Origin: a candidate division KSB1 bacterium
Lineage (GTDB): Bacteria > Zhuqueibacterota > JdFR-76 > DREG01
NCBI GenBank assembly: GCA_022566355.1
Contig: JADFJB010000151.1
Coordinates: 1-9,858, forward strand
Direction of reading: 5' to 3'
Length of the DNA: 9,858 nucleotides
The position numbers and the translations under genes were made by a program. This document shows positions 1-9,858 of the stretch, piece by piece. The stretch's first letter is position 1. Each line of letters opens with the position of its first letter. Below the pieces are notes generated by a model, which worked only from the letters and a program-made list of their open reading frames with translations, made no database searches and was not told where the DNA came from.

Positions 1-44
1 TTATCACAAAGATAACATTTTTGAGGTTTTTTGGATTCTTCCAT
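1..44 (-). CDS. possible N-terminus of an unidentified leftward protein (partial)
   Basis: Reading leftward from an ATG at 44-42, 14 codons stay open to the window edge and give MEESKKPQKCYLCD. The C-x2-C pair near the start could be half of a zinc-binding site, but there is too little sequence to assign a family. No strong Shine-Dalgarno lies in front of the ATG; the upstream DNA is A/T rich. It would be transcribed in the same direction as the glycosylasparaginase gene, but about 300 bp separates them. This could equally be a chance open stretch. Confidence 0.3.
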   Translation of the reverse strand, partial: MEESKKPQKCYLCD

Positions 45-345
45 TTTTACTTATCTTATCTTTTAGTATTTATTTTAATTATTCCTAATTTTTCTAGTTA
101 GTGTATACAACAAAGGAAAAACTTAGTACAGCAATATATAACTAATTAAAACACAATAATACTTATATTTTTGGGAGAAAATATTTCGTTAAACCTGAAA
201 CGGAGAAAGGGGGATAGAATAGCCTTAACTTTTATCCTAGATGAAATATCCAGGAGATGCGACCTCCCTTACAAGCACGTAATTGTTATTCGGTAGGAAT
301 CTTGTTATGAATAATAAATTGCATCCAGAATCAAGCTTCCAGCAA
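45..345. other. AT-rich intergenic region, nothing assigned
   Basis: This stretch lies between the glycosylasparaginase stop and the possible gene start at 44. The first two thirds are very A/T rich. I see no convincing coding sequence, tRNA-like cloverleaf or G/C hairpin followed by a T-run. It may hold the promoter for the gene running off the left edge. Confidence 0.4.
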
Positions 346-1386
346 CTACATCACATGATAACCTCGATGGATCTCCAGTCCGTCCTTAGTCATTGCAGTA
401 TATTCAGGACCTTGGCCCCGGCCACGGATACCGCCGCGGTAGTACTCGCCGTCTTTGTTGATGGCGATAAAATTATCAGAAAAATCAGGTTTGCCGTTGT
501 TGTGATCGATGATCCGTTGACAGCAATTTTCCACCGCTTCTCTCGGAGACATCCCGTGGCGCATGTTTTCCACAACCAGAAAGCTGCCGCAAACCTTGAT
601 CACCGCCTCGCCGCGCCCGGTTGCCCCGCAAGCGCCGATATCATTGTCGACATATAAGCCTGCGCCAACGATTGGAGAATCGCCGGCTCTGCCCGGTATT
701 TTAAAAGAAAGCCCGGATGTAGTCGTACAGCCATACAAATTGCTGTCTTCATCTAGACCGATTACGTTAATGGTACCGGTAGAGCGGCCGGGGATATTAT
801 ACTCGCCATCCTCCGGTGGGAACCAATCATCCTTTTCACTGAGGTTTTCTTTCCACTTCAGCCAAATTAATCGAGCCCTCTCCGTTAACAGATTTTCTTT
901 CTTGTAGCCATGCGCCATTGCAAATCGAAGCGCGCCTTCGCCAACCAGCATAACATGGTCGGTGCGTTCCATAACCAGGCGGGCAATGTTACTGGGGGTT
1001 TTAATATTTTCCAGGCCGGCAACTGCGCCGGCGTTCCTGGTAGGACCGTGCATGACGGTGGAATCCAACTGCACGACACCTTCCTCATTGGGAATCCCGC
1101 CATAACCGACAGAAGAGTCGGTGGGATCCAATTCAACGACATTAGCGCCGCCGATAATACCATCCATTAAATCGCCGGACTTTTCAAATGCAGACCAGGC
1201 GGCCTCCAGTACTTTTTTACCCCAATCACCGCCATTGCCGCGACCGGTTATAATGATTGGTTTCTTGCCCTTGCTACGCATCAGGTTTTTAGTAATATAT
1301 GGCGCCCCACCACCAAGAAATGGAATGGCTGCTCCGGCGCCGAAAAGCTTCTTCACAAAATTTCGTCGATGAATTCTTTTTGACAT
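346..1386 (-). CDS. Tat-exported glycosylasparaginase / N4-(beta-N-acetylglucosaminyl)-L-asparaginase family Ntn hydrolase
   Basis: This 346-residue protein belongs to the T2 Ntn-hydrolase family. Members are made as a single chain, self-cleave in front of a Thr, and then use that Thr as nucleophile to hydrolyse Asn-linked GlcNAc or asparaginyl amides. The N-terminus has a twin-arginine signal, RRNFVKK (7-13), followed by a hydrophobic stretch, so export in folded form is expected. The cleavage/nucleophile site is STGTINV (202-208), with Thr205 as nucleophile. GRAGDSPIVGAG (232-243) and GATGRGE (254-260) match the conserved substrate-pocket loops. The residue before the Thr is Gly, as in asparaginase-like members, rather than the Asp of the classic human and Flavobacterium enzymes, so substrate preference is uncertain. 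Length is normal for a bacterial homologue with a leader. A strong AAGGAGGT at 1390-1397 fixes the ATG start. A role in scavenging glycoprotein fragments is inferred from the family. Confidence 0.9.
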   Translation of the reverse strand: MSKRIHRRNFVKKLFGAGAAIPFLGGGAPYITKNLMRSKGKKPIIITGRGNGGDWGKKVLEAAWSAFEKSGDLMDGIIGGANVVELDPTDSSVGYGGIPNEEGVVQLDSTVMHGPTRNAGAVAGLENIKTPSNIARLVMERTDHVMLVGEGALRFAMAHGYKKENLLTERARLIWLKWKENLSEKDDWFPPEDGEYNIPGRSTGTINVIGLDEDSNLYGCTTTSGLSFKIPGRAGDSPIVGAGLYVDNDIGACGATGRGEAVIKVCGSFLVVENMRHGMSPREAVENCCQRIIDHNNGKPDFSDNFIAINKDGEYYRGGIRGRGQGPEYTAMTKDGLEIHRGYHVM

Positions 1387-1389
1387 GAT

Positions 1390-1397
1390 ACCTCCTT
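1390..1397 (-). promoter_or_regulatory. strong Shine-Dalgarno for the glycosylasparaginase gene
   Basis: On the minus strand this reads AAGGAGGT, a near-perfect match to the 16S rRNA tail. It lies a few bases before the ATG at 1386 and supports that start codon. Confidence 0.85.
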
Positions 1398-1515
1398 CAA
1401 CAATTGTGTGTGTTGGAATTATGCGTCAAGTTAATTCTTGTAATTTTACGAATTGACTAATGGTAACAAGGAGATTAGTAAAACGCAATAGAATTCTTAT
1501 AAAAATATTATTTAT

Positions 1516-1561
1516 ACAGGATTAGACCGCAAAGGATTTTTTTTGACAGGATGAACAGGAT
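1516..1561. repeat. short interspersed ACAGGAT repeat
   Basis: ACAGGAT occurs three times here, at 1516-1522, 1546-1552 and 1555-1561. The last two are adjacent, in a context reading GACAGGATGAACAGGATT after a run of eight T. I recall similar ACAGGATxxACAGGAT strings scattered in intergenic DNA of several unrelated bacterial genomes. Here the repeat sits between the TPR and glycosylasparaginase genes. No function is evident. Confidence 0.5.
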
Positions 1562-1652
1562 TTACAAAATGACAAATCAAAGGGTTATGGTTTTTAGGTA
1601 TTTTCTCTTCTCTGCTTTGAGTTTGTTATAGTTGATACTAAACCAAATCATT

Positions 1653-2915
1653 TTACGGCCGATTGGGGAGATCGGTAAAAGCGCCGATAAATCGCGTTCG
1701 ATAAGTTTCACCCTGGTAGGGAGTTTCGATAAACCTTTCTGCCAGCTTTTTTTCGTTACCCATTTTTTCAAATTTCCGTACTTTTTTATAAGCTGAAATT
1801 GCCGCCATACGTTTGTTCTGCAGGTCATATATCTTGCCAAGGGTTAAGTAGGCTAATGCGGTTAAATAACTGCCATTCTTCTTGGGATATTGTTCGCAAT
1901 AATCTTCAAGCAGCAGCATTGCACGGGTATAATTCTTTTCGGTGAAATGAAAGTAGCCCTCCATAAAATTAAACTTGTTCAACCACCAGGGATAAAAATC
2001 CAACTCCTTCGCTTTAATAAATGCACGAACCGTATCAAGATCGCTTTTTAAATGTTGCCATTCACTTTGATTATGGTTTAAAGCATAATAGAACCTGGAA
2101 TTGGTCCGCATCGTGTAGAACTCCAGGCTGGTAGGATATTTTTCTAGTAGAGAAGTCAAAATATCTATGGCTTTGCGGTATTGTTTGCTATAATGAATAT
2201 GAGCAAAGGCGATGGTTTCAATTGCAACTAATTGTGTGAATTTTCCTTTTTCAACTGCAATATTCAAGTGCTCATAACCAAGCTTTGCATCCCCGGCTGG
2301 GATCGGAAGGAGACGCTGGATAAAACGAACGATTCCCGTTTGATTCCCGGCAACCACATGGTATAATCCGGAACCAAAATAAATGTCATATAGGGTGGAA
2401 TCCAGGACCAGTGCTTTTTCAAGATACCGGATACCCCGCAAAGCAGCTAATCCTGTTTTGATCCATTTTTTTTCCCGCGCATAGATTGCCCCTTCATAAC
2501 CGTAAGCGCCGCCGGCGAAGAAATGCGCCCTGGCATCACGGGGATAGGTTTTAATCTGTTTTCTTGATCTTGAGATTGCTTCTTTCAACCACATTTTTGT
2601 GGTGTCATTATAATCACTGTAATTTTTTAAATAGAAGCCCTTTTTCATTGAGATAACCGCCCGAATGAAATAACCGGCTGGTGAATCCGGGTAACGGTCG
2701 ATGAGAATTTGTGATACGGAATCTGCAGATGCGTACTCTTCCCGGTAGAGCCAATCGATGGTTTCGGAGAGTTTTAAGTCGATCTGATCCCATTCTATCT
2801 TTTTTTCATTTGCTGTTCCATAAATGAAAGCATTGAATCCAATCAATAAATATATAAACACAAACAAGATTTTTAGATAGCCTGATTTCATGTTGCCCGG
2901 ATATATTTTTATCAT
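1653..2915 (-). CDS. exported tetratricopeptide-repeat protein
   Basis: A 420-residue helical-repeat protein with an N-terminal membrane/signal segment at about residues 14-33 (hydrophobic, rich in Ile/Leu/Phe). From about residue 45 it shows repeated amphipathic helix pairs with TPR-like spacing, for example around 55-85, 115-185, 230-275 and 315-385. Landmarks are YPDSPAGYF (75-83), FFAGGAYGYEGAIYAR (132-147) and LDSTLYDIYFGSGLYH (171-186). The last two resemble a conserved core seen in uncharacterised TPR proteins of FCB bacteria. It probably works in the periplasm as a protein-binding scaffold; no enzymatic motif is visible. An ATG at 2915 and another at 2891 (residue 9) are both possible starts. 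The second places the signal sequence closer to the N-terminus and neither has a clear Shine-Dalgarno. The final residues read TDLPNRP before the stop. Confidence 0.75.
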   Translation of the reverse strand: MIKIYPGNMKSGYLKILFVFIYLLIGFNAFIYGTANEKKIEWDQIDLKLSETIDWLYREEYASADSVSQILIDRYPDSPAGYFIRAVISMKKGFYLKNYSDYNDTTKMWLKEAISRSRKQIKTYPRDARAHFFAGGAYGYEGAIYAREKKWIKTGLAALRGIRYLEKALVLDSTLYDIYFGSGLYHVVAGNQTGIVRFIQRLLPIPAGDAKLGYEHLNIAVEKGKFTQLVAIETIAFAHIHYSKQYRKAIDILTSLLEKYPTSLEFYTMRTNSRFYYALNHNQSEWQHLKSDLDTVRAFIKAKELDFYPWWLNKFNFMEGYFHFTEKNYTRAMLLLEDYCEQYPKKNGSYLTALAYLTLGKIYDLQNKRMAAISAYKKVRKFEKMGNEKKLAERFIETPYQGETYRTRFIGAFTDLPNRP

Positions 2916-2927
2916 TATTTATTAGAT

Positions 2928-2989
2928 AACCAATATTAGGGTAGGATACACAACCATTTAATTCAATCAAAGTTGGAGGAATATTGGTT
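2928..2989. promoter_or_regulatory. 10-bp inverted repeat upstream of the TPR gene
   Basis: AACCAATATT at 2928-2937 is perfectly inverted as AATATTGGTT at 2980-2989, with 42 bp between. The nearer arm is about 12 bp upstream of the TPR start codon, so this could be a two-site operator or a folded leader. No regulator can be named. Confidence 0.35.
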
Positions 2990-2994
2990 GGGAA

Positions 2995-3014
2995 AGTCAA
3001 TCCGTTGATTGACT
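2995..3014. repeat. 8-bp hairpin between the RHS relic and the TPR gene
   Basis: AGTCAATC (2995-3002) and GATTGACT (3007-3014) are perfectly complementary around a 4-nt loop. In the minus direction the stem is followed by only a short T stretch, so it would be a weak terminator at best. It sits just beyond the end of the RHS-like debris. Confidence 0.4.
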
Positions 3015-3071
3015 AACTCATTGGAAAAAATGAGAGTGGCGCCGCTATACAAAATCAATATTTAAAAGGAT

Positions 3072-3955
3072 TCACAATTTTAATTCCTCCGTAAAATCAT
3101 CGTTTAAAACTTCTGACAAAAGTTCAATTACATTGGTCTTGAAATTGGATTTGTCAGATTCAAAAAGTGTAATTAGCATGGACATCCAACACCGCAAAAT
3201 GGGTTATTACTTCCTCTGTTTCCAGGGGTCGATCAAGGCCGTCGAATGTAACAAAAAAACTTAACCGGCAACTTCCCCTGGTTGGCATCCCAGGAAAAGC
3301 GCAGGTTGCCGTTTTTGTCGTATTTGAACTCGGTTGTATCGGCGTCCGGAGTGACCCGTTTGGTCAGTTGATTGAGGGTGTAGTATTCGTAAGTCGTGAT
3401 CTAACCATTTGCAGTAGAACCTGTTGTGACGGGGATCGAAATAGTTTAGGACGCGTAGTGGTAAGGTTATTAACGATATCAAAAATGAATTCAGTCGTGG
3501 TTTGAGAGTGGTAGCTCCCGGCATTACTAAATAATTTAATAGTGTCGCTTATGTAACTGGTAATCATGAGGTTCATAAGTTAATTCCGTATAACCTCCGG
3601 TACGGGTAGGTGATTTTCTTCAGAGTCCATCAAAAAGATAGCCGGAATCCGGTTTTCGGTTTGCTCCGAAGTTGTATATTCTCCAGTAACAAGGGGTTAC
3701 ATGTAAACCTTCCAAAACCTTCGTAGTATTTAACCTGTTGTTGATATAAACCCTAATGGTCGATGGCATCTGAAAAACGAGATGGGAGTGATTGTGATTC
3801 ATCATATTCCAATACATAAGAAGGCAGCGGCCCCCCCCCCCCGTCACTGCCTTCTCGATAACAAACAATAATCGCAGCCACATGGCATCACTTGCGCCAA
3901 AATAATCATAACTCAGTATTAATTTCTTAATTTTCTTAACCAAATCGTTTCCTAT
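3072..3955 (-). pseudogene. decayed RHS/YD-repeat protein gene fragment
   Basis: Leftward translation gives RHS-type segments in correct order but in changing frames. GNDLVKKIKK and LSYDYFG appear near 3900-3950, PLPSYVLEYDESQ and FSDAIDH near 3760-3830, and GANRKPDSGYLFDG near 3620-3660. LKKITYP near 3605-3620 is continued in another frame by TGGYTELTYEPHDYQ. YEYYTLNQLTKRVTPDAD and FKYDKNGNLRFSWDAN follow at about 3285-3392, the latter a canonical YD repeat. FVTFDGLDRPLETEE and ANYTF come next, then ESDKSNFKTN in another frame. At least four frame changes are needed, and a TAG interrupts SDAIDH-stop-G where related proteins have Trp. Intact members are very large wall-associated or secreted proteins, some delivering toxins. 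This is an internal piece of one and cannot make a product. The last 35 codons (to 3072) may be RHS tail or unrelated. Confidence 0.8.
3819..3855. repeat. C12 homopolymer in the loop of a 9-bp perfect inverted repeat
   Basis: AGAAGGCAG (3819-3827) and CTGCCTTCT (3847-3855) form a perfect 9-bp stem. The 19-nt loop contains an unbroken run of twelve C (3831-3842), which is twelve G on the strand of the RHS relic. It lies inside the RHS debris, just before the PLPSYVLEYD segment. Such a run slips easily in replication and is also error-prone in sequencing, so its exact length is uncertain. Confidence 0.6.
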
Positions 3956-4248
3956 CTAGTAGATTATCCGGCGACTACAATGATAATATGACTATCAATA
4001 TATAATGCCGTAAATTATGACAAAAAAGTAACAAGATTTATGGAAAAAAATACTGTTATCCAAATCTCAAATCTTAACCCAGCTTATTATTTGGGGAGAG
4101 AACTTCTATTTTATTTATTAAAAATGTTAGATTTTTTTCCTAGACATTGCCATGTTGTTTTGATTTTTGAAGGCCAAAATTCCTATAAAAGCCCCTTGTT
4201 TTAAACATCGGCTCAGATAATGAGTGATTAGTGGTTGCAGGCCAAAAA
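3956..4248. other. AT-rich intergenic region with one marginal small ORF
   Basis: This region lies between the RHS relic and the DUF4097 terminator. The only open stretch of note is a plus-strand ATG ORF of 54 residues at 4040-4204. It starts MEKNTVIQISNLNP and is mildly hydrophobic in the middle. It has no good Shine-Dalgarno, no recognised family and very A/T-rich codons, so I do not call it a gene. Nothing else is evident. Confidence 0.35.
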
Positions 4249-4273
4249 AAAAGCCGGTTAAAAACCGGCTTTT
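4249..4273 (-). terminator. intrinsic terminator of the DUF4097 gene
   Basis: AAAAGCCGGTT (4249-4259) pairs with AACCGGCTTTT (4263-4273) across a 3-nt loop. On the minus strand the stem is followed by an uninterrupted T-run (4250 down to 4244), the classical Rho-independent form. It is 25 bp past the DUF4097 stop codon. Confidence 0.9.
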
Positions 4274-4297
4274 AAACTCAAGGTATGTAATTTATTT

Positions 4298-5320
4298 TTA
4301 ACGTCGAACCAACTTTATACCCCCGCCAGAGGATCTAAGCGTAAGCAGCGGCCCGCCGCCATTTAATTCACCGCGCAGCCTGCTTCTGGATATTTTACCT
4401 CGCACTTTTACCGGAAAATCTACCCTCACCCTGCCGCCTGAGGTTCTGGCATCGATGTCTACTTTAACATCCTCGTCCATGTAAAGCGTTACCGAACCAC
4501 CGGAAGTCTTCAAGTACACCGGTCCTGAAGGCTGCCCAACCAATTCTGCTTTTATACTGCCACCGGAAGTGGAAGCATTGACTTGTCCAGAAATATCAAT
4601 CAGCCGAATTCCACCACCGGATGTATGTGCTTCCAGGTCGCCGCTCATCCCTTCTGCTGTTATGGATCCGCCCGACGTCTTACATTGGATAGATCCTACG
4701 CAATCCATAACTTTGATGCTGCCTCCGGAGGTCTTCAAATATGCATCCCCGGTAATATTCTTAGCAGTTACCGAACCGCCACTTGTTCTTGCCTGGATAT
4801 CTCCGGTCAATTCATCTAATCTTAAAGAACCACCGGAAGTTTTCAATCTTATTTCACCATTAACATTTTCAACTTCTACACTCCCCCCGGATGTAACGAT
4901 GTCCAAGTCAAATGTTGAGGGCACCTCAATCTCATAAATGACTTTCAATCTATTCCAAAAAGAACTTCTCCAAAACCCGGGTTTGCTATATTCTCCATAG
5001 ATTTCAACGCCATCTCTGGTCTGGTTAAAATCCAATCGAAACCGATCAAACATTTCTTCTGCGCGATCCTTACTGACTCGATTGGCGCCTTTTATGACTT
5101 TAACAGTCACTTCATTCCCGGAACCGCCAACTATTTGCACCGAACCTCTATCCGTATCTATGATTAAAACCTGGCCATTTTTAACTGAGAAATTCTTTTC
5201 AACAACCTCCTGGTACTTAAACTTGTCGTCATATTTCCCGGCATATGCAGAACCAAAAACAAAAATCGTTAAAAGGAGGACCCAGAAAAAATTCCATCTC
5301 AAATAAAGTTTACTTTGCAT
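4298..5320 (-). CDS. secreted DUF4097-family beta-solenoid protein with TSGG repeats
   Basis: A 340-residue protein with a Sec signal peptide at 1-27 (hydrophobic 11-22, then GSAYA, cleavage likely after Ala27). The first domain to about residue 140 is beta rich. The remainder is a solenoid in which TSGG recurs at residues 143, 161, 179, 197, 215, 233 and 251, exactly 18 apart, then at 272 and 293 (21 apart), with SSGG at 330. Each unit alternates short strands with a polar turn, as in DUF4097/adhesin-like right-handed beta-helices. The mature C-terminus is basic (KLVRR). An AAGGAG at 5329-5334, 8 nt before the ATG, sets the start, and a strong terminator follows the stop. The gene is monocistronic and divergent from the lipid cluster. 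The biochemical role of the family is not established; a surface or periplasmic structural role is inferred. Confidence 0.85.
   Translation of the reverse strand: MQSKLYLRWNFFWVLLLTIFVFGSAYAGKYDDKFKYQEVVEKNFSVKNGQVLIIDTDRGSVQIVGGSGNEVTVKVIKGANRVSKDRAEEMFDRFRLDFNQTRDGVEIYGEYSKPGFWRSSFWNRLKVIYEIEVPSTFDLDIVTSGGSVEVENVNGEIRLKTSGGSLRLDELTGDIQARTSGGSVTAKNITGDAYLKTSGGSIKVMDCVGSIQCKTSGGSITAEGMSGDLEAHTSGGGIRLIDISGQVNASTSGGSIKAELVGQPSGPVYLKTSGGSVTLYMDEDVKVDIDARTSGGRVRVDFPVKVRGKISRSRLRGELNGGGPLLTLRSSGGGIKLVRR
4433..4894 (-). repeat. coding repeat array, 54-bp period (TSGG units)
   Basis: Codons for nine TSGG turns lie at a strict 54-bp spacing for the first seven (six intervals) and 63 bp for the last two intervals. 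The DNA itself has diverged; the plus strand shows variants such as CCACCGGAAGT and CCGCCCGACGT. The pattern is therefore kept by protein selection rather than by recent duplication. Confidence 0.75.
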
Positions 5321-5498
5321 ATCTCAAACTCCTTCATTGTTTCAAGATGCCAAAACTATAACCAAGGCGTAAAATATATATAAAATAACTCCAGGTAATA
5401 CGTTTTGTCAAGTAAAATGTTTCAACTTAATTATGGATATTGATATCAAAAACCTTTACATTTTGCCGAATCACTTTTAACATAAACAGGTCGGATTT
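5321..5498. promoter_or_regulatory. divergent intergenic promoter region
   Basis: These 178 bp separate the leftward DUF4097 gene from the rightward lipid cluster, so both transcripts should start here. The region is A/T rich. I cannot pick confident -35/-10 pairs by eye, and no clear operator palindrome stands out. Confidence 0.5.
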
Positions 5499-6758
5499 TT
5501 GCAAGGAAATATTAATTTTGATATCGTCACAGACATCGCAGTAATCGGAGCCGGTCCGGGCGGTTGCGCAACCTCATTATTCCTCTCCAAAGCAGGAATT
5601 AATCACACCTTATTTGACAAGGCAATTTTCCCAAGAGATAAAGTTTGCGGGGATGCTATTAGCGGCAAAGCGATAGCTGTTTTCAACCAACTCGATCCAT
5701 CCATACTCGATGGTATCAAAAGGGACGAATCCGCCTTCCTGGGCAGCTGGGGTGTCACTTTTTTTGCGCCAAATGGTAAACCGCTTGAGGTGCCTTTCAA
5801 GATGAACCTGGAAGAGCAAGTGGATGCGCCGGGATTTATCGCCAAGCGAATTGATTTCGATAATTATCTCGTTGAACAATTAGATCATAAGACAGCAGAC
5901 ATCCATTTGGGCGCTTTTGTAAAGAATGTCGAGCACACAAACAATGGTATAAAGATTAGTTTTCAGCATGAAGGGAAAGAGAAAACCTGCATGGCACAAC
6001 TGGTCATTGGCGCCGAAGGAGACCGGTCGATTGTGGCAAAAAAACTAGCCCATCATAAAATGGAGCCTGAGTATTACTGCGCCGGCATTCGTGCTTATTA
6101 TGAAAATGTAACCGGGATTCATAAAAATAATTTTATCGAACTTCATTTTCTACGAGATGTTTTACCGGGTTATTTCTGGATTTTCCCTTTGCCAAACAAT
6201 ATGGTAAATATCGGCTTAGGTATGCTCGCTTCAGAAGCCCGCAAAAAGAATGTCAACATCAAAAAAGTCATGCTGAATGCGATCAAAGAAAACCATACCA
6301 TAAAAGACAGGTTTAAAGATTCAATTCTCCGGGGCCAAATCAAGGGTTGGGGGCTGCCGTTGGGTTCGATTAAAAGAAAACTCTCGGGTGACCGGTTCAT
6401 GCTAGTGGGAGACGCCGCGTCGTTAATCGATCCGTTTACAGGCGAAGGGATTGGCAATGCTTTTGTGACCGGCAAAATCGCTGCAGAATTTTCTCAACAA
6501 GCGCTTGAAGAGAAAAACTTATCCGCTTCATTCCTGGCAAAATATGATGAAGAAGTCTATAATGAATTGTGGAGCGAGCTGAAATTAAGCCATACATTAC
6601 AAAAGTTAGTAAACTTTCCCTGGTTGTTCAATTTTCTGGTTAACAAAGCGCGCAAGAATAAGACGATTCAAGAAACCATCACTTGTATGTTTGAAGACTT
6701 AGATATGAGGGCAAAATTGCGTTCACCCTCCTTTTATTTTAAGTTGCTGTTTAATTAA
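5499..6758 (+). CDS. geranylgeranyl reductase family FAD-dependent oxidoreductase
   Basis: A 419-residue flavoprotein of the geranylgeranyl reductase family, which uses reduced FAD to saturate double bonds in polyprenyl chains of lipids, quinones or chlorophyll. The Rossmann motif GAGPGG is at 17-22, PRDKVCGD with the family Cys50 at 45-52, GAEGDRS at 171-177, PGYFWIFPL at 223-231 and the second FAD motif GDAASLIDPFTGEGI at 304-318. The protein is complete and of normal length. The start is TTG at 5499, since an in-frame TAA lies at 5478 and there is no ATG before the FAD motif; a weak AGG precedes it by about 8 nt. The gene ends 26 bp before the phosphatidyltransferase, so co-transcription is likely. 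The C-terminal 80 residues are helical and basic, consistent with membrane contact. The exact lipid substrate (archaeal-type ether lipid, menaquinone or other) cannot be told from sequence. Confidence 0.88.
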   Translation: MQGNINFDIVTDIAVIGAGPGGCATSLFLSKAGINHTLFDKAIFPRDKVCGDAISGKAIAVFNQLDPSILDGIKRDESAFLGSWGVTFFAPNGKPLEVPFKMNLEEQVDAPGFIAKRIDFDNYLVEQLDHKTADIHLGAFVKNVEHTNNGIKISFQHEGKEKTCMAQLVIGAEGDRSIVAKKLAHHKMEPEYYCAGIRAYYENVTGIHKNNFIELHFLRDVLPGYFWIFPLPNNMVNIGLGMLASEARKKNVNIKKVMLNAIKENHTIKDRFKDSILRGQIKGWGLPLGSIKRKLSGDRFMLVGDAASLIDPFTGEGIGNAFVTGKIAAEFSQQALEEKNLSASFLAKYDEEVYNELWSELKLSHTLQKLVNFPWLFNFLVNKARKNKTIQETITCMFEDLDMRAKLRSPSFYFKLLFN

Positions 6759-6784
6759 AACCATGATTATGTTGAGGGAGTGCC

Positions 6785-7430
6785 ATGGCCGCAAATATCA
6801 TTACTTTAGGGCGGATCGTTCTGACATTTTTTGTTATCATTCTTTTTCTGGGTGGATTCTATTTCCGCATAATCGCAGTGCTGTTAACGATATTAGTTGT
6901 TTACCTGGATTCTCTCGATGGCATTGTTGCGCGTAAACTAGGATTGGCCAGCGGAATTCGGCGCATTGTTCGACATTACCGGAGATCGCATCGTAGAGCA
7001 TATTTACTGGATCTTCTTTACCAGTGTTGGGATTGTAAGTTTTTGGGTGCCGATCATATTTGTTTGTCGAAGTTTTTTGGTCGATACGCTTCGCAGTGTC
7101 GCATTTGCGAAAGAAGGCAAGACCCCCTTTGGAGAAAAAAGCATGATGCGTTCTTCATTTACCCATTTTCTCACAGCATCCCGTTTTAGCCGTGCTGTTT
7201 ATGGCGCCGGTAAAGTTTTGGCATTCATACTATTGGGTGCGATTCTTGCCTTAAATAAGAAGCCCGATTTGTTATCACAAAATACTTTTGATCAATTAAA
7301 ACTTATCACTCAATCTATTGTTTGGATTGTCGTGGTGATGAATTTAATCCGGGGATTACCAGTCTTGTGGGATGGACGCGCTTATTTGTTTGACAAAAAA
7401 TTTCCCCGTTTGCTCAAAGACGCCGGATAG
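6785..7430 (+). pseudogene. CDP-alcohol phosphatidyltransferase, interrupted by a 1-nt frameshift
   Basis: This family transfers a phosphatidyl group from a CDP-activated lipid to an alcohol such as glycerol-3-phosphate, serine or inositol, inside the cytoplasmic membrane. The signature D-x2-DG-x2-AR-x8-G-x3-D-x3-D is complete only across two frames. DSLDGIVARKLGLAS (42-56) is in the ATG frame and EFGALFDITGD (57-67) in the next. Removing one G at 6953-6954 restores one 214-residue protein of ordinary family length, with membrane segments at about 11-40 and several more after residue 70. As it stands, translation from the ATG ends at 7189 with a scrambled tail. GAGGGAG precedes the ATG at 6785. 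The restored stop is 3 bp before the HAD gene. The downstream frame is otherwise undamaged, so either the mutation is very recent or this is a sequencing/assembly error. Headgroup specificity is not readable; a PgsA-like role is one option. Confidence 0.82.
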
Positions 7431-7433
7431 CTC

Positions 7434-8086
7434 ATGGCCAAATGGGCAGTATTCGACGTTGATGGCACTTTGCTGCCCAAAACGTCGATGGAAAAATGGT
7501 TCATAACTTATGCAGTAAAAAGGCGCTTGATACCTCTCAAAAATCTATTCTATTTTTTTCTTCAGCTTTAAATTTTACTTTGAAAGGAAATTGGGTAAAC
7601 GCGTTTAAAGGGAATAGGCTGTATTTAAAAGATTTACCAGTGGATAGAATAAATAAAACAAGTCTTCTCTTCTTTGAAATAAACATTGTACCTGCTTTAT
7701 CTGCTGATGGCAAGGAAACAATAGATCGCTACCGCAGTCAAGGGTATAAAATACTGATCATGAGCGGATCGCCGGAATTTCTGACGCTTTCCCTGGAAAA
7801 TATTTTTCATCCCGAAAAAATAATCTCCACGAATCTGGAAACCAGAGAAGGCAGGTATATCGGCCAAATTTCCGGAATGCATCTTTACGGAAAACACAAA
7901 ACCCGGATCCTGAAAAACTTACAAACTGAATTGGAGATCGATTTCGAAAAATCGATTGTATTTGCTAATCATCATGCAGATGCAGATCACATGGATTTAT
8001 TTGGGGAAGCAGTGGCGGTAAATCCCACGCAAAAATTAAAATCTATTGCAGAAGAGAAGAGTTGGAGGATTGAATTTTGGGCCTAA
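7434..8086 (+). pseudogene. HAD-superfamily subclass IB phosphatase, interrupted by a 1-nt frameshift
   Basis: The ATG at 7434 opens MAKWAVFDVDGTLLPKTS, HAD motif I with nucleophile Asp8 and acid/base Asp10. This frame stops soon after a T7 run at 7553-7559. The remainder continues in another frame with ILIMSGSPEF (motif II), YGKHKTR (motif III Lys) and FANHHADADHMDLFG (motif IV region), ending VNPTQKL and SWRIEFWA. Adding one T to the run yields a single protein of 217 residues, a normal HAD-IB size (the PgpC/SerB-like group). In motif IV the usual first Asp of DxxxD is Asn (NHHAD), which might weaken magnesium binding. Three bases separate it from the preceding transferase gene, suggesting coupled translation. 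In that context a lipid-phosphate phosphatase role, such as removing the phosphate from a PGP-like product, is inferred, not shown. Confidence 0.8.
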
Positions 8087-8300
8087 GAAGAACGGCTTGG
8101 CGATAAGCTGCGGCGTCCTGTTGAAAATGCGTCGAATAGGTCACGCGATAAAAGACTATGAATCATGATTGATTAATAGGAATCTCCATCATTAACCCTT
8201 GTGTTTCATTGTATTTCCTCCTTTTCGAGATGTTTAAATGTCAGCAAAATTATGAATAATTTTAATAGCCAAACTGGAGCTTCTAATAATAAAGCGAGCA
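8087..8300. other. intergenic region with an orphan minus-strand translation start
   Basis: This 214-bp region lies between the HAD stop and the attC-like R' box. On the minus strand it has an excellent GGAGG (8221-8217), then 7 nt and an ATG (8209-8207), but the frame ends after MKHKG. It may be the stump of a deleted gene. AATCATGATT (8161-8170) is a perfect 10-bp palindrome of unknown role. There is no terminator-like hairpin for the HAD transcript. Confidence 0.5.
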
Positions 8301-8430
8301 ACCTAACTCTTAGTTCACCGGACTGGCGGGCCAACCAAGTGAACGGTTAATAAATCAAAACTGTCGGTGACAGTTACGGGTTTGATTATACATTGGGCGA
8401 GCCAGTTCCGTGTGCAACGCTGGGTTATGT
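8301..8430 (-). mobile_element. attC-like integron recombination site (130 bp)
   Basis: Read on the minus strand: R'' ACATAAC (8430-8424), 5-nt spacer CCAGC, L'' GTTGCACACGGAACTGGC (8418-8401), 73-nt central segment, L' GCCAGTCCGGTGAAC (8327-8313), 5-nt spacer TAAGA, and R' GTTAGGT (8307-8301). R' matches GTTRRRY exactly and pairs with R'' at 6 of 7 positions. All 15 bases of L' pair with L''. Three bases of L'' (G, A, A) are left unpaired, matching the extrahelical bases that give attC its polarity. Spacer lengths and total length are within the normal attC range. The central segment holds its own 7-bp hairpin (AACTGTC/GACAGTT, 8359-8375). The site starts 41 bp after the DUF1415 stop, in the same orientation, as expected for a gene cassette. 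The R/L pairing is direct observation; activity is inferred. Confidence 0.75.
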
Positions 8431-9162
8431 GGTGCGTCGCACAGGTTTATTCTCGGCTGAGTTTTGATACCTTACGGGTTCCTATCGTTTAAACAGGATC
8501 TCAATAATGCCTGCAGCTTGTCCTGTCCCAGGTCATTCATTAGCGCTTTGTTTCGCACTGGAATTTGATCGACTTCAGGATAGTCCGCAATGACTCGCTC
8601 AAGACTCGCCTCTCGAATAAGATGCAACATGGGATAGGGCGAGCGGTTCGTATAGTTCTCTACATCGTCCGGCTTTGTACCGTCAAACTGATAGTCCGGA
8701 TGAAAGCTGGCTATCTGATAGATACCTTCCAATCCCATCTCCACAAGTAAACTATCGGCATAACTCAGAAACTGATTGTAGTCGCAAAAGTCTTGCAATA
8801 CACCTGAGTGAATCAGCAGCGTGGTTTCAACTGACGGATCAGTATTGAGCAATTCCAACTCGGCTTGCAGAGCCATCAACAACTGCTCTTCCGTTATCGA
8901 TGTAGTGGTAGCAAAGCGCACCCTGTTCTTCACCATCTCACGTTTGGCAAATGGACAGAGATTCATTCCCACAACCAAAGTTTCAACCCACTGCCGTACA
9001 GGTCGAACCATTTTCTCGTCATACACGAGATCACCTGATCTTGAAGCTTCCTTCATTCGCCTTCCATATAACTAGTAATTCAATAGTTTCTTGATAACAT
9101 CCCAAAACTATGAGATTTTTACTAACTTGTAAAAGAAACTTAACTTTTGCAACAAAACCTAA
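8307..9162 (-). mobile_element. candidate integron gene cassette carrying DUF1415
   Basis: The heptamer GTTAGGT occurs on the minus strand at 9163-9157 and again as R' of the attC at 8307-8301. Integron recombination cuts after the G, so the unit runs from 9162 to 8307, 856 bp, and contains one gene followed by its attC. This is standard cassette layout. When circularised, its start TTAGGT would complete an R' pairing with R'' at 6 of 7 bases. There is no second complete attC at 9157 and no integrase in view, so it could be a solitary cassette at a secondary site, or one edge of an array. Confidence 0.6.
8472..9056 (-). CDS. DUF1415 family protein
   Basis: A 194-residue soluble protein matching the DUF1415 family, which I know mainly from Gammaproteobacteria and which has no established function. 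Conserved stretches visible here are GMNLCPFAKRE (30-40), IASFHPDYQFDG (115-126) and NRSPYPMLHLIRE (137-149). Cys34, His119 and His145 are possible functional residues. There is no signal peptide or membrane segment. The start is ATG at 9056, preceded closely by GGAAGG (9065-9060). The protein is full length and undamaged, unlike the two genes to its left. Its position between GTTAGGT boxes, 41 bp upstream of an attC-like structure, and its apparent proteobacterial affinity suggest it arrived as an integron cassette. Promoter elements may lie in the A/T-rich leader at 9066-9156, but none is clear. Confidence 0.85.
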   Translation of the reverse strand: MKEASRSGDLVYDEKMVRPVRQWVETLVVGMNLCPFAKREMVKNRVRFATTTSITEEQLLMALQAELELLNTDPSVETTLLIHSGVLQDFCDYNQFLSYADSLLVEMGLEGIYQIASFHPDYQFDGTKPDDVENYTNRSPYPMLHLIREASLERVIADYPEVDQIPVRNKALMNDLGQDKLQALLRSCLNDRNP

Positions 9163-9163
9163 C

Positions 9164-9234
9164 TGAATAACACCCTATACGGGACGGTTTTAAGAAACTG
9201 CATAACAATCAGTTCTATAATTTTATTTAACCTG
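9164..9234. other. intergenic spacer left of the M24 gene, no complete attC
   Basis: This is the DNA on the other side of the cassette start. On the minus strand it ends GGGTGTT-ATTCA before GTTAGGT, which looks like an L'-spacer-R' half, with only a poor partner (AAC, CCC) nearby. No full attC fold can be built from it. It may be a degraded site or host DNA used as a secondary target. Confidence 0.35.
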
Positions 9235-9858
9235 TCAATTCATTCTAGGAATCAAAATCAATTCTTCCTGCCTGCCATCAATAAACCAAACTTTTGTACC
9301 ATCAAAAAAAGCATCCTCTTCCAGCATGATTCGAATTTCTTTTTGGTTCCATTCCGGAATTGCAACTGTGGCATTTAATTCAATTGAATAGGCCGTATTC
9401 GGCAAAAGCGGATAATCGCCACGGCCCGGAACTCCTCCCTGTTGATCCCACATTCCAATCGTTGGTCCGGCAGCATGACCATGGAAACCAATCGGATGAG
9501 TGTAGATGGAAGGCTTGATTCCTTCCGCTTTTGCTTGTTCCAGAGATTTGCTAAGAATTTCATTCCCCGTTCTACCCTTTTTGAAATTGGTTGTTAAAAT
9601 ATCTTGAAGACGGTTTCCAATTTTTAGTGCATTTCTTAATCCTGCCGGTGCTTCTTTTTCTCCCGGTTTCAAAACATAGGCATGTTGCTGGGTATCCGTA
9701 TTGAGCCGCAGGTAGGTGATACCAAAATCGATATGGAGCAGATCGCCTGGCAAAATGATATCAGAATCCGGTCTGGAGGCAAAAGAGCCTCTCTTCTCCG
9801 GTTCCCCGGCTCTTTGAATAGAGACACTGGGATGAAACCAGGTTTGCAGCTTTAATCC
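9235..9858 (-). CDS. M24-family metallopeptidase (Xaa-Pro aminopeptidase-like), partial
   Basis: The C-terminal 207 residues of a pita-bread-fold dinuclear metallopeptidase; the N-terminal part lies beyond the right edge of the window and the frame is open to base 9858. Counting from the first visible residue, metal ligands are Asp44 in HIDFG and Asp55 in LNTD (the family's 11-residue spacing), a His in THPIGFHGHAAGP (120-132), Glu160 in SIELN, and Glu180 or 181 in IMLEEDAFFDG. GDLLHIDFG and the late IRIMLEED segment are typical of aminopeptidase P/prolidase relatives. No signal peptide can be judged. The gene is convergent with the lipid cluster and separated from it by the DUF1415 cassette. 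It could be a peptidase or a catalytically distinct M24 relative, but all expected ligands are present. Confidence 0.85.
   Translation of the reverse strand, partial: GLKLQTWFHPSVSIQRAGEPEKRGSFASRPDSDIILPGDLLHIDFGITYLRLNTDTQQHAYVLKPGEKEAPAGLRNALKIGNRLQDILTTNFKKGRTGNEILSKSLEQAKAEGIKPSIYTHPIGFHGHAAGPTIGMWDQQGGVPGRGDYPLLPNTAYSIELNATVAIPEWNQKEIRIMLEEDAFFDGTKVWFIDGRQEELILIPRMN

Follow-up and report, generated by a model that had tools for sequence, protein, structure and literature searches.

Single attC sites that lie apart from any integron integrase are known as SALIN, and clusters of attC sites lacking one as CALIN, in the definitions that PMC12690207 gives after Cury et al. 2016. Cassettes of such integrase-less clusters can be recruited by integrases from outside (PMC9668308), and the integron integrase IntI can insert cassettes at chromosomal attG sites, as Loot et al. 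2024 is cited in PMC12901181 and PMC12444791.

Here we describe a locus of this type in an uncultured, non-proteobacterial host, in which a gene of the DUF1415 family is bounded by the ends of an integron gene cassette. The window, i.e. the whole stretch of DNA analysed, comprises contig C151 (positions 1-9,858) of a 4.62-Mb host assembly in 213 contigs (98.5% complete, contamination 0.21%). We consider it highly likely that 8307-9162 is a solitary integron gene cassette (SALIN) that was put into the chromosome by an integrase now absent, because a full attC of the right polarity and a matching far box enclose one intact ORF, and because the locus is empty in a member of the same family, the gene phylogeny is alien to the host and no IntI scores over the cut-off. 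The core of the initial annotation, which saw in this region a DUF1415 gene carried in an integron cassette whose attC measures 130 bp, is thereby supported.

The attC site and the cassette boundaries

The window carries the following features, the boxes and arms having been read directly from the sequence.

5499..8086, plus strand: geranylgeranyl-reductase-like (GGR), CDP-alcohol phosphatidyltransferase-like and HAD genes, all directed towards the cassette
8301..8430, minus strand: attC site of 130 bp, whose recombinogenic bottom strand is the plus strand of the window
8301..8307, minus strand: R' box GTTAGGT, 3' cassette boundary
8307..9162, minus strand: gene cassette of 856 bp as delimited by the G^TT cut points, starting with the first T of the 5' GTTAGGT and ending with the initial G of the R' box
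8313..8327, minus strand: L' arm, GCCAGTCCGGTGAAC
8401..8418, minus strand: L'' arm, GTTGCACACGGAACTGGC, with three extrahelical bases
8424..8430, minus strand: R'' box ACATAAC
8472..9056, minus strand: DUF1415 cargo gene (PF07209), 194 aa, intact
9157..9163, minus strand: GTTAGGT box, 5' cassette boundary
9235..9858, minus strand: M24 peptidase-like gene, truncated at the contig end, running in the same direction as the cassette and upstream of it

Read along the minus strand from 8430 to 8301, the attC runs ACATAAC, CCAGC, GTTGCACACGGAACTGGC, 73 nt of loop, GCCAGTCCGGTGAAC, TAAGA and GTTAGGT. The R'' and R' boxes pair at 6/7 positions, and R'' has one mismatch to RYYYAAC. Each spacer measures 5 nt, and the L'' and L' arms form 15 bp, with all three extrahelical bases on L''. 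Every one of these measurements in the initial annotation holds. The site thus combines the two inverted repeats, the short spacers and the GTTRRRY-type R' box of an attC with extrahelical bases on one arm, a foldable bottom strand and a polarity that matches the gene.

Integron recombination cuts at G^TT. Over the 9858 bases the motif GTTAGGT has exactly two copies, which lie on the minus strand to either side of one ORF, and the second copy (9157-9163), identical to the R' box, lies at the other cassette end as had been proposed. Accordingly, a single gene with a 3' attC has GTTRRRY boxes on both sides, which is the make-up of an integron gene cassette.

The site was evaluated with an explicit attC scorer, which replaced a looser hairpin scorer found to be non-specific. 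It scored 12.7, a value that was reached or exceeded by one site in 600 dinucleotide-shuffled versions of the full window (≈0.002 per window), and base shuffles of the window gave approximately 1.5 sites per Mb with scores of ≥12. Covariance models were trained on attC sites near IntI genes from the same phylum and from DUF1415-bearing genomes. Model R3 was built from 16 attC, eight foreign and eight others of the host genome, the window site being left out; the eight host sites had themselves been chosen with R1, R2 and the explicit scorer, and the power of R3 comes in part from them. It placed the site on the minus strand with 30.2 bits (E 2.1e-5) versus 6.4 bits on the plus strand of this stretch and 7.2 bits for the second-best place in the window, and therefore the attC polarity agrees with the orientation of the gene, in line with the initial annotation and on the strand that it had predicted. 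R2, trained on attC of other genomes (long foreign sites only), aligned the full site correctly with just 12.2 bits and ranked a false plus-strand match higher (15.4 bits), so that R2 taken alone is an ambiguous arbiter of this site. R1 has a short loop and is unable to span sites longer than approximately 110 nt; since it also misses long sites of its own training type, its blank on the window was not counted as a negative. Folding as single-stranded DNA was consistent with the proposal for the plus strand, whose fold is equalled or surpassed by 1-2 of 200 shuffles; the same holds for the minus strand. The Rfam search of the window gave no match.

Integrases and other cassettes in the host genome and its phylum

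No IntI scoring over the model cut-off was found in the host assembly, a 213-contig draft of a kind in which integron platforms often break, and an intI and attI beside cassettes, as in a complete integron, were likewise not detected; the lack of a nearby integrase noted initially thus extends to the whole assembly. The full-length candidates matching the IntI model were XerD (342.5 bits, cut-off 329.6) and XerC (351.5 bits, cut-off 335.15), both rejected as IntI because they exceed their own Xer cut-offs, and a third candidate was a 196-aa XerA-like ORF.

Positions 9432-9858 of the window overlap the first 427 bases of host contig C17 (G000:C17:1-427) at 95.6% identity; C17 is probably the adjoining contig, the mismatches being strain variation, unless a gene has been duplicated. 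Neither a second attC nor an intI was present in the window contig (9.9 kb) or over the initial 6 kb of C17, the adjacency of the two contigs being inferred from this overlap; a single attC, no integrase and no second attC nearby is the arrangement that characterises a SALIN. Of the two options offered by the initial annotation, a solitary cassette or the edge of an integrase-less array, the solitary attC at the locus stands, and both a singleton and the last cassette of an array are compatible with it.

Other cassettes are present elsewhere in the host genome, and those on C200, C96, C149, C35, C206 and C184 served as positive controls. Specifically, C200 carries seven attC on the same strand (at 247, 757, 1170, 2107, 2650, 3072 and 3652; array L225, 247-3711) with small cargo genes between them encoding a zinc ribbon, a RidA family member and proteins without assignment, after which the array meets another gene of the same direction. 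The R3 scan of the genome scored 150 of 884 candidates, and single or paired attC among the matches listed, which do not include the window site, lie on C96, C149, C35, C206, C184, C30, C176 and C24, those on the last three being of varying strength. The single cassette on C96 (L250, 6484-7370) encodes a T9SS-sorted protein. Here the 5' box, GTTAGGT, is perfectly complementary to R'' ACCTAAC and the present R' reads GTTATGT, which is the pattern predicted where a G^TT exchange has taken the final six bases from the recipient site. On C35 (L252, 133-1666) an attC follows a SIR2-type deacylase gene, and beyond it come a YdeI/OmdA-like fragment and a short ORF, the latter resembling by eye a RelE/HigB-type toxin.

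The initial annotation had regarded the host as lying outside the usual integron lineages, a view that needs correcting because IntI scores over the curated cut-off in 35/82 genomes of the same phylum and attC sites occur in 54/81. G002, of the same family, has 28 attC spread over more than 10 contigs and one intI, with an attC adjoining it on C88; hence scattered cassettes may be usual in the host family.

Origin of the cargo gene and its proposed route into the chromosome

The ORF at 8472-9056 matches the DUF1415 model with 229.7 bits (cut-off 26). Among the 82 genomes of the phylum the host is the only one with a DUF1415 gene (81 without). Its closest relatives, 60-72% identical, are found in Gammaproteobacteria, and in the phylogenetic tree it falls within a supported clade (96/84) of 27 rows, 25 of which are Pseudomonadota. 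The DUF1415 tree places the gene with Pseudomonadota and marks it as alien to the host phylum. The simplest reading of these sequence relationships is that DUF1415 moved between phyla, from a donor that they do not pin down exactly. Because the gammaproteobacterial-type gene sits here singly, in a cassette that has an attC of its own, its carrier between the phyla was very probably the gene-capture machinery of integrons.

Gammaproteobacterial DUF1415 loci were searched for an adjoining attC and gave no clear case, and for this reason we do not claim DUF1415 as a common cassette cargo. In one gammaproteobacterial locus (L043, 664-4293; DUF1415 64% identical) a single good attC lies 2.3 kb upstream of the gene and those nearer to it are weak; the genome carries IntI, and DUF1415 may be cassette cargo there as well. 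Plasmid records held only DUF1415 sequences of less than 60% identity, and a comparison with PADLOC gave no match.

In the same-family genome G001, a single contig carries homologues of the M24 (79-80% identity) and GGR (65%) genes and of DUF4097 with order and orientation conserved, and neither DUF1415 nor an attC is present between the flanking genes. The HAD (45%) and CDP-alcohol phosphatidyltransferase homologues of G001 are on another contig, not at the M24-GGR locus; because these are missing there and M24 is only ~80% identical, the G001 locus is empty yet too diverged for an exact alignment of the junction, at which an attG insertion would show a precise empty site. Relatives with DUF1415 at this place and no GTTAGGT boxes, named in the initial annotation as evidence against a cassette, were not found: the sole close relative with the locus is without DUF1415. 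The other objection named there, the lack of any attC hit, is answered by the R3 hit on the site. With the 856-bp cassette taken out of the window, 292 bp would separate the HAD and M24 stop codons. As a separate observation, the CDP-alcohol phosphatidyltransferase-like gene (6785-7430) is split into two overlapping frames, 6785-7189 and 6966-7430, both matched in G001, which points to either a frameshift or an assembly error.

We suggest the following course of events. DUF1415 would first have become a cassette in a gammaproteobacterial or a shared environmental cassette pool, from which a circular copy would have come into the host lineage. The integrase may have come from an integron of the host that was later lost or is missing from the assembly, or from a passing element or otherwise in trans; it would have bound the folded plus strand of the attC, cut at G^TT and linked the cassette to a G^TTAGGT of the chromosome approximately 70 bp past the M24 stop codon. 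Entry via a non-classical, attG-like site is the route that we favour. As no IntI is present now, the cassette would be immobile unless one were supplied in trans. Promoter and terminator scans of the window gave results close to chance level, and DUF1415 is probably expressed by read-through from M24, to judge from the sequence, since the cassette is co-directional with this gene and lies just behind it.

The two boxes alone would also fit a different history, in which an earlier array or integron lost its other cassettes and intI by deletion and left this cassette as its remaining end, since a cassette from inside an array would show two GTTAGGT boxes too. The seven-attC array on C200 and the intI with an attC beside it on C88 of G002 also speak for such a history. 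However, the contig and the first 6 kb of C17, its probable neighbour, hold no further attC, the gap of approximately 70 bp between M24 and the cassette contains none either, and the single attC scattered over many contigs suit dispersal better than one decayed array, and we therefore regard a decayed array as somewhat unlikely rather than as the main account.

Two other explanations dispense with the integron or with the transfer. The phylogeny alone would fit any route, including ordinary horizontal transfer followed by homologous or illegitimate recombination with the attC-like hairpin and the second GTTAGGT arising by chance, and R1 and R2 are indeed weak on the window site; that the shuffles, the polarity score of R3 and two boxes exactly flanking one ORF should all come together by chance is nevertheless very unlikely, which leaves this explanation highly improbable. 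More improbable still is that the contig was misbinned from another organism, whereby the cross-phylum history would be false. It is a short contig (9.9 kb) in a draft genome, and cassette-bearing contigs are often misplaced, but the best relatives of its flanking genes are in the same family (G001) with synteny kept, and its end overlaps C17 of the host genome at 95.6%. A direct insertion of a single cassette, as set out above, remains our preferred reading.

The predicted cargo fold and comparison with known systems

The cargo protein retains the residues that are invariant in 44 relatives, among them Cys34, which belongs to a C-P-F-A motif. The window DUF1415 was modelled with AlphaFold from an alignment of 45 rows (pLDDT 90, pTM 0.86), and the model has the element order two helices, strand, helix, strand, helix, strand, strand and long helix. 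Searched by sequence, no solved DUF1415 relative was found, and AglA is approximately 10% identical with no sequence-level match. In structural comparison the model aligned to AglA with VIA-align Z scores of 8.1-9.2 over 155-167 residues, versus 5.5 for the next unrelated chain, and Foldseek put the same AglA entries first, weakly (E 0.02). AglA is a heme-thiolate guanidine N-hydroxylase of the YqcI/YcgG type in which Cys44 holds the heme iron (PMC12866846), and the element order published for it (PDB 9ub3 and others; PMC12866846) agrees with that of the model. Judged from the aligned ranges only (model 9-180, AglA 20-214), Cys34 falls near Cys44 and may, on the model, be a heme ligand. The likeness to AglA is a lead and not an assignment of membership; because the predicted fold is that of AglA-type heme-thiolate enzymes, DUF1415 may be a small redox enzyme, and this represents a first testable idea of its function.

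Taking the two lines together, we put forward as a tentative and rather unlikely joint proposal that the host lineage scatters single cassettes at non-classical sites through external or transient integrases, such that cassettes are dispersed one-gene insertions shared across phyla, and that DUF1415 is an unrecognised heme-thiolate family with an AglA-like fold.

Compared with SALIN and CALIN as described, the locus is similar in having one full attC with its cassette and no intI nearby, in a genome with a seven-attC CALIN; it differs in that the uncultured host is non-proteobacterial and encodes T9SS-sorted proteins, and in the gammaproteobacterial-type DUF1415 cargo. With attG insertion, as reported in the papers citing Loot et al. 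2024, it shares single cassettes that are scattered intergenically, with presumed cut points at G^TT, whereas the cases given there concern mainly the class 1 integrase in laboratory strains and ours a natural genome with no detected IntI. The scattered single attC beside a true array in this genome provide material for asking whether attG-type insertion shapes natural chromosomes. The sedentary chromosomal integrons surveyed in non-proteobacterial phyla and archaea (PMC9668308) are alike in their uncultured lineages, mostly without IntI, and in cross-taxon cargo; that survey counted clusters and left singleton attC out, while the present case is a singleton with an empty locus in a relative. 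Integron capture is a mechanism already known, and the cassette is a real and well-formed example of it in an integron-rich phylum outside Proteobacteria that shares cargo with Gammaproteobacteria. Moreover, in joining cassette ends, an alien gene and an empty locus, it offers unusually complete evidence for the cross-phylum transfer of a single gene by the integron route.
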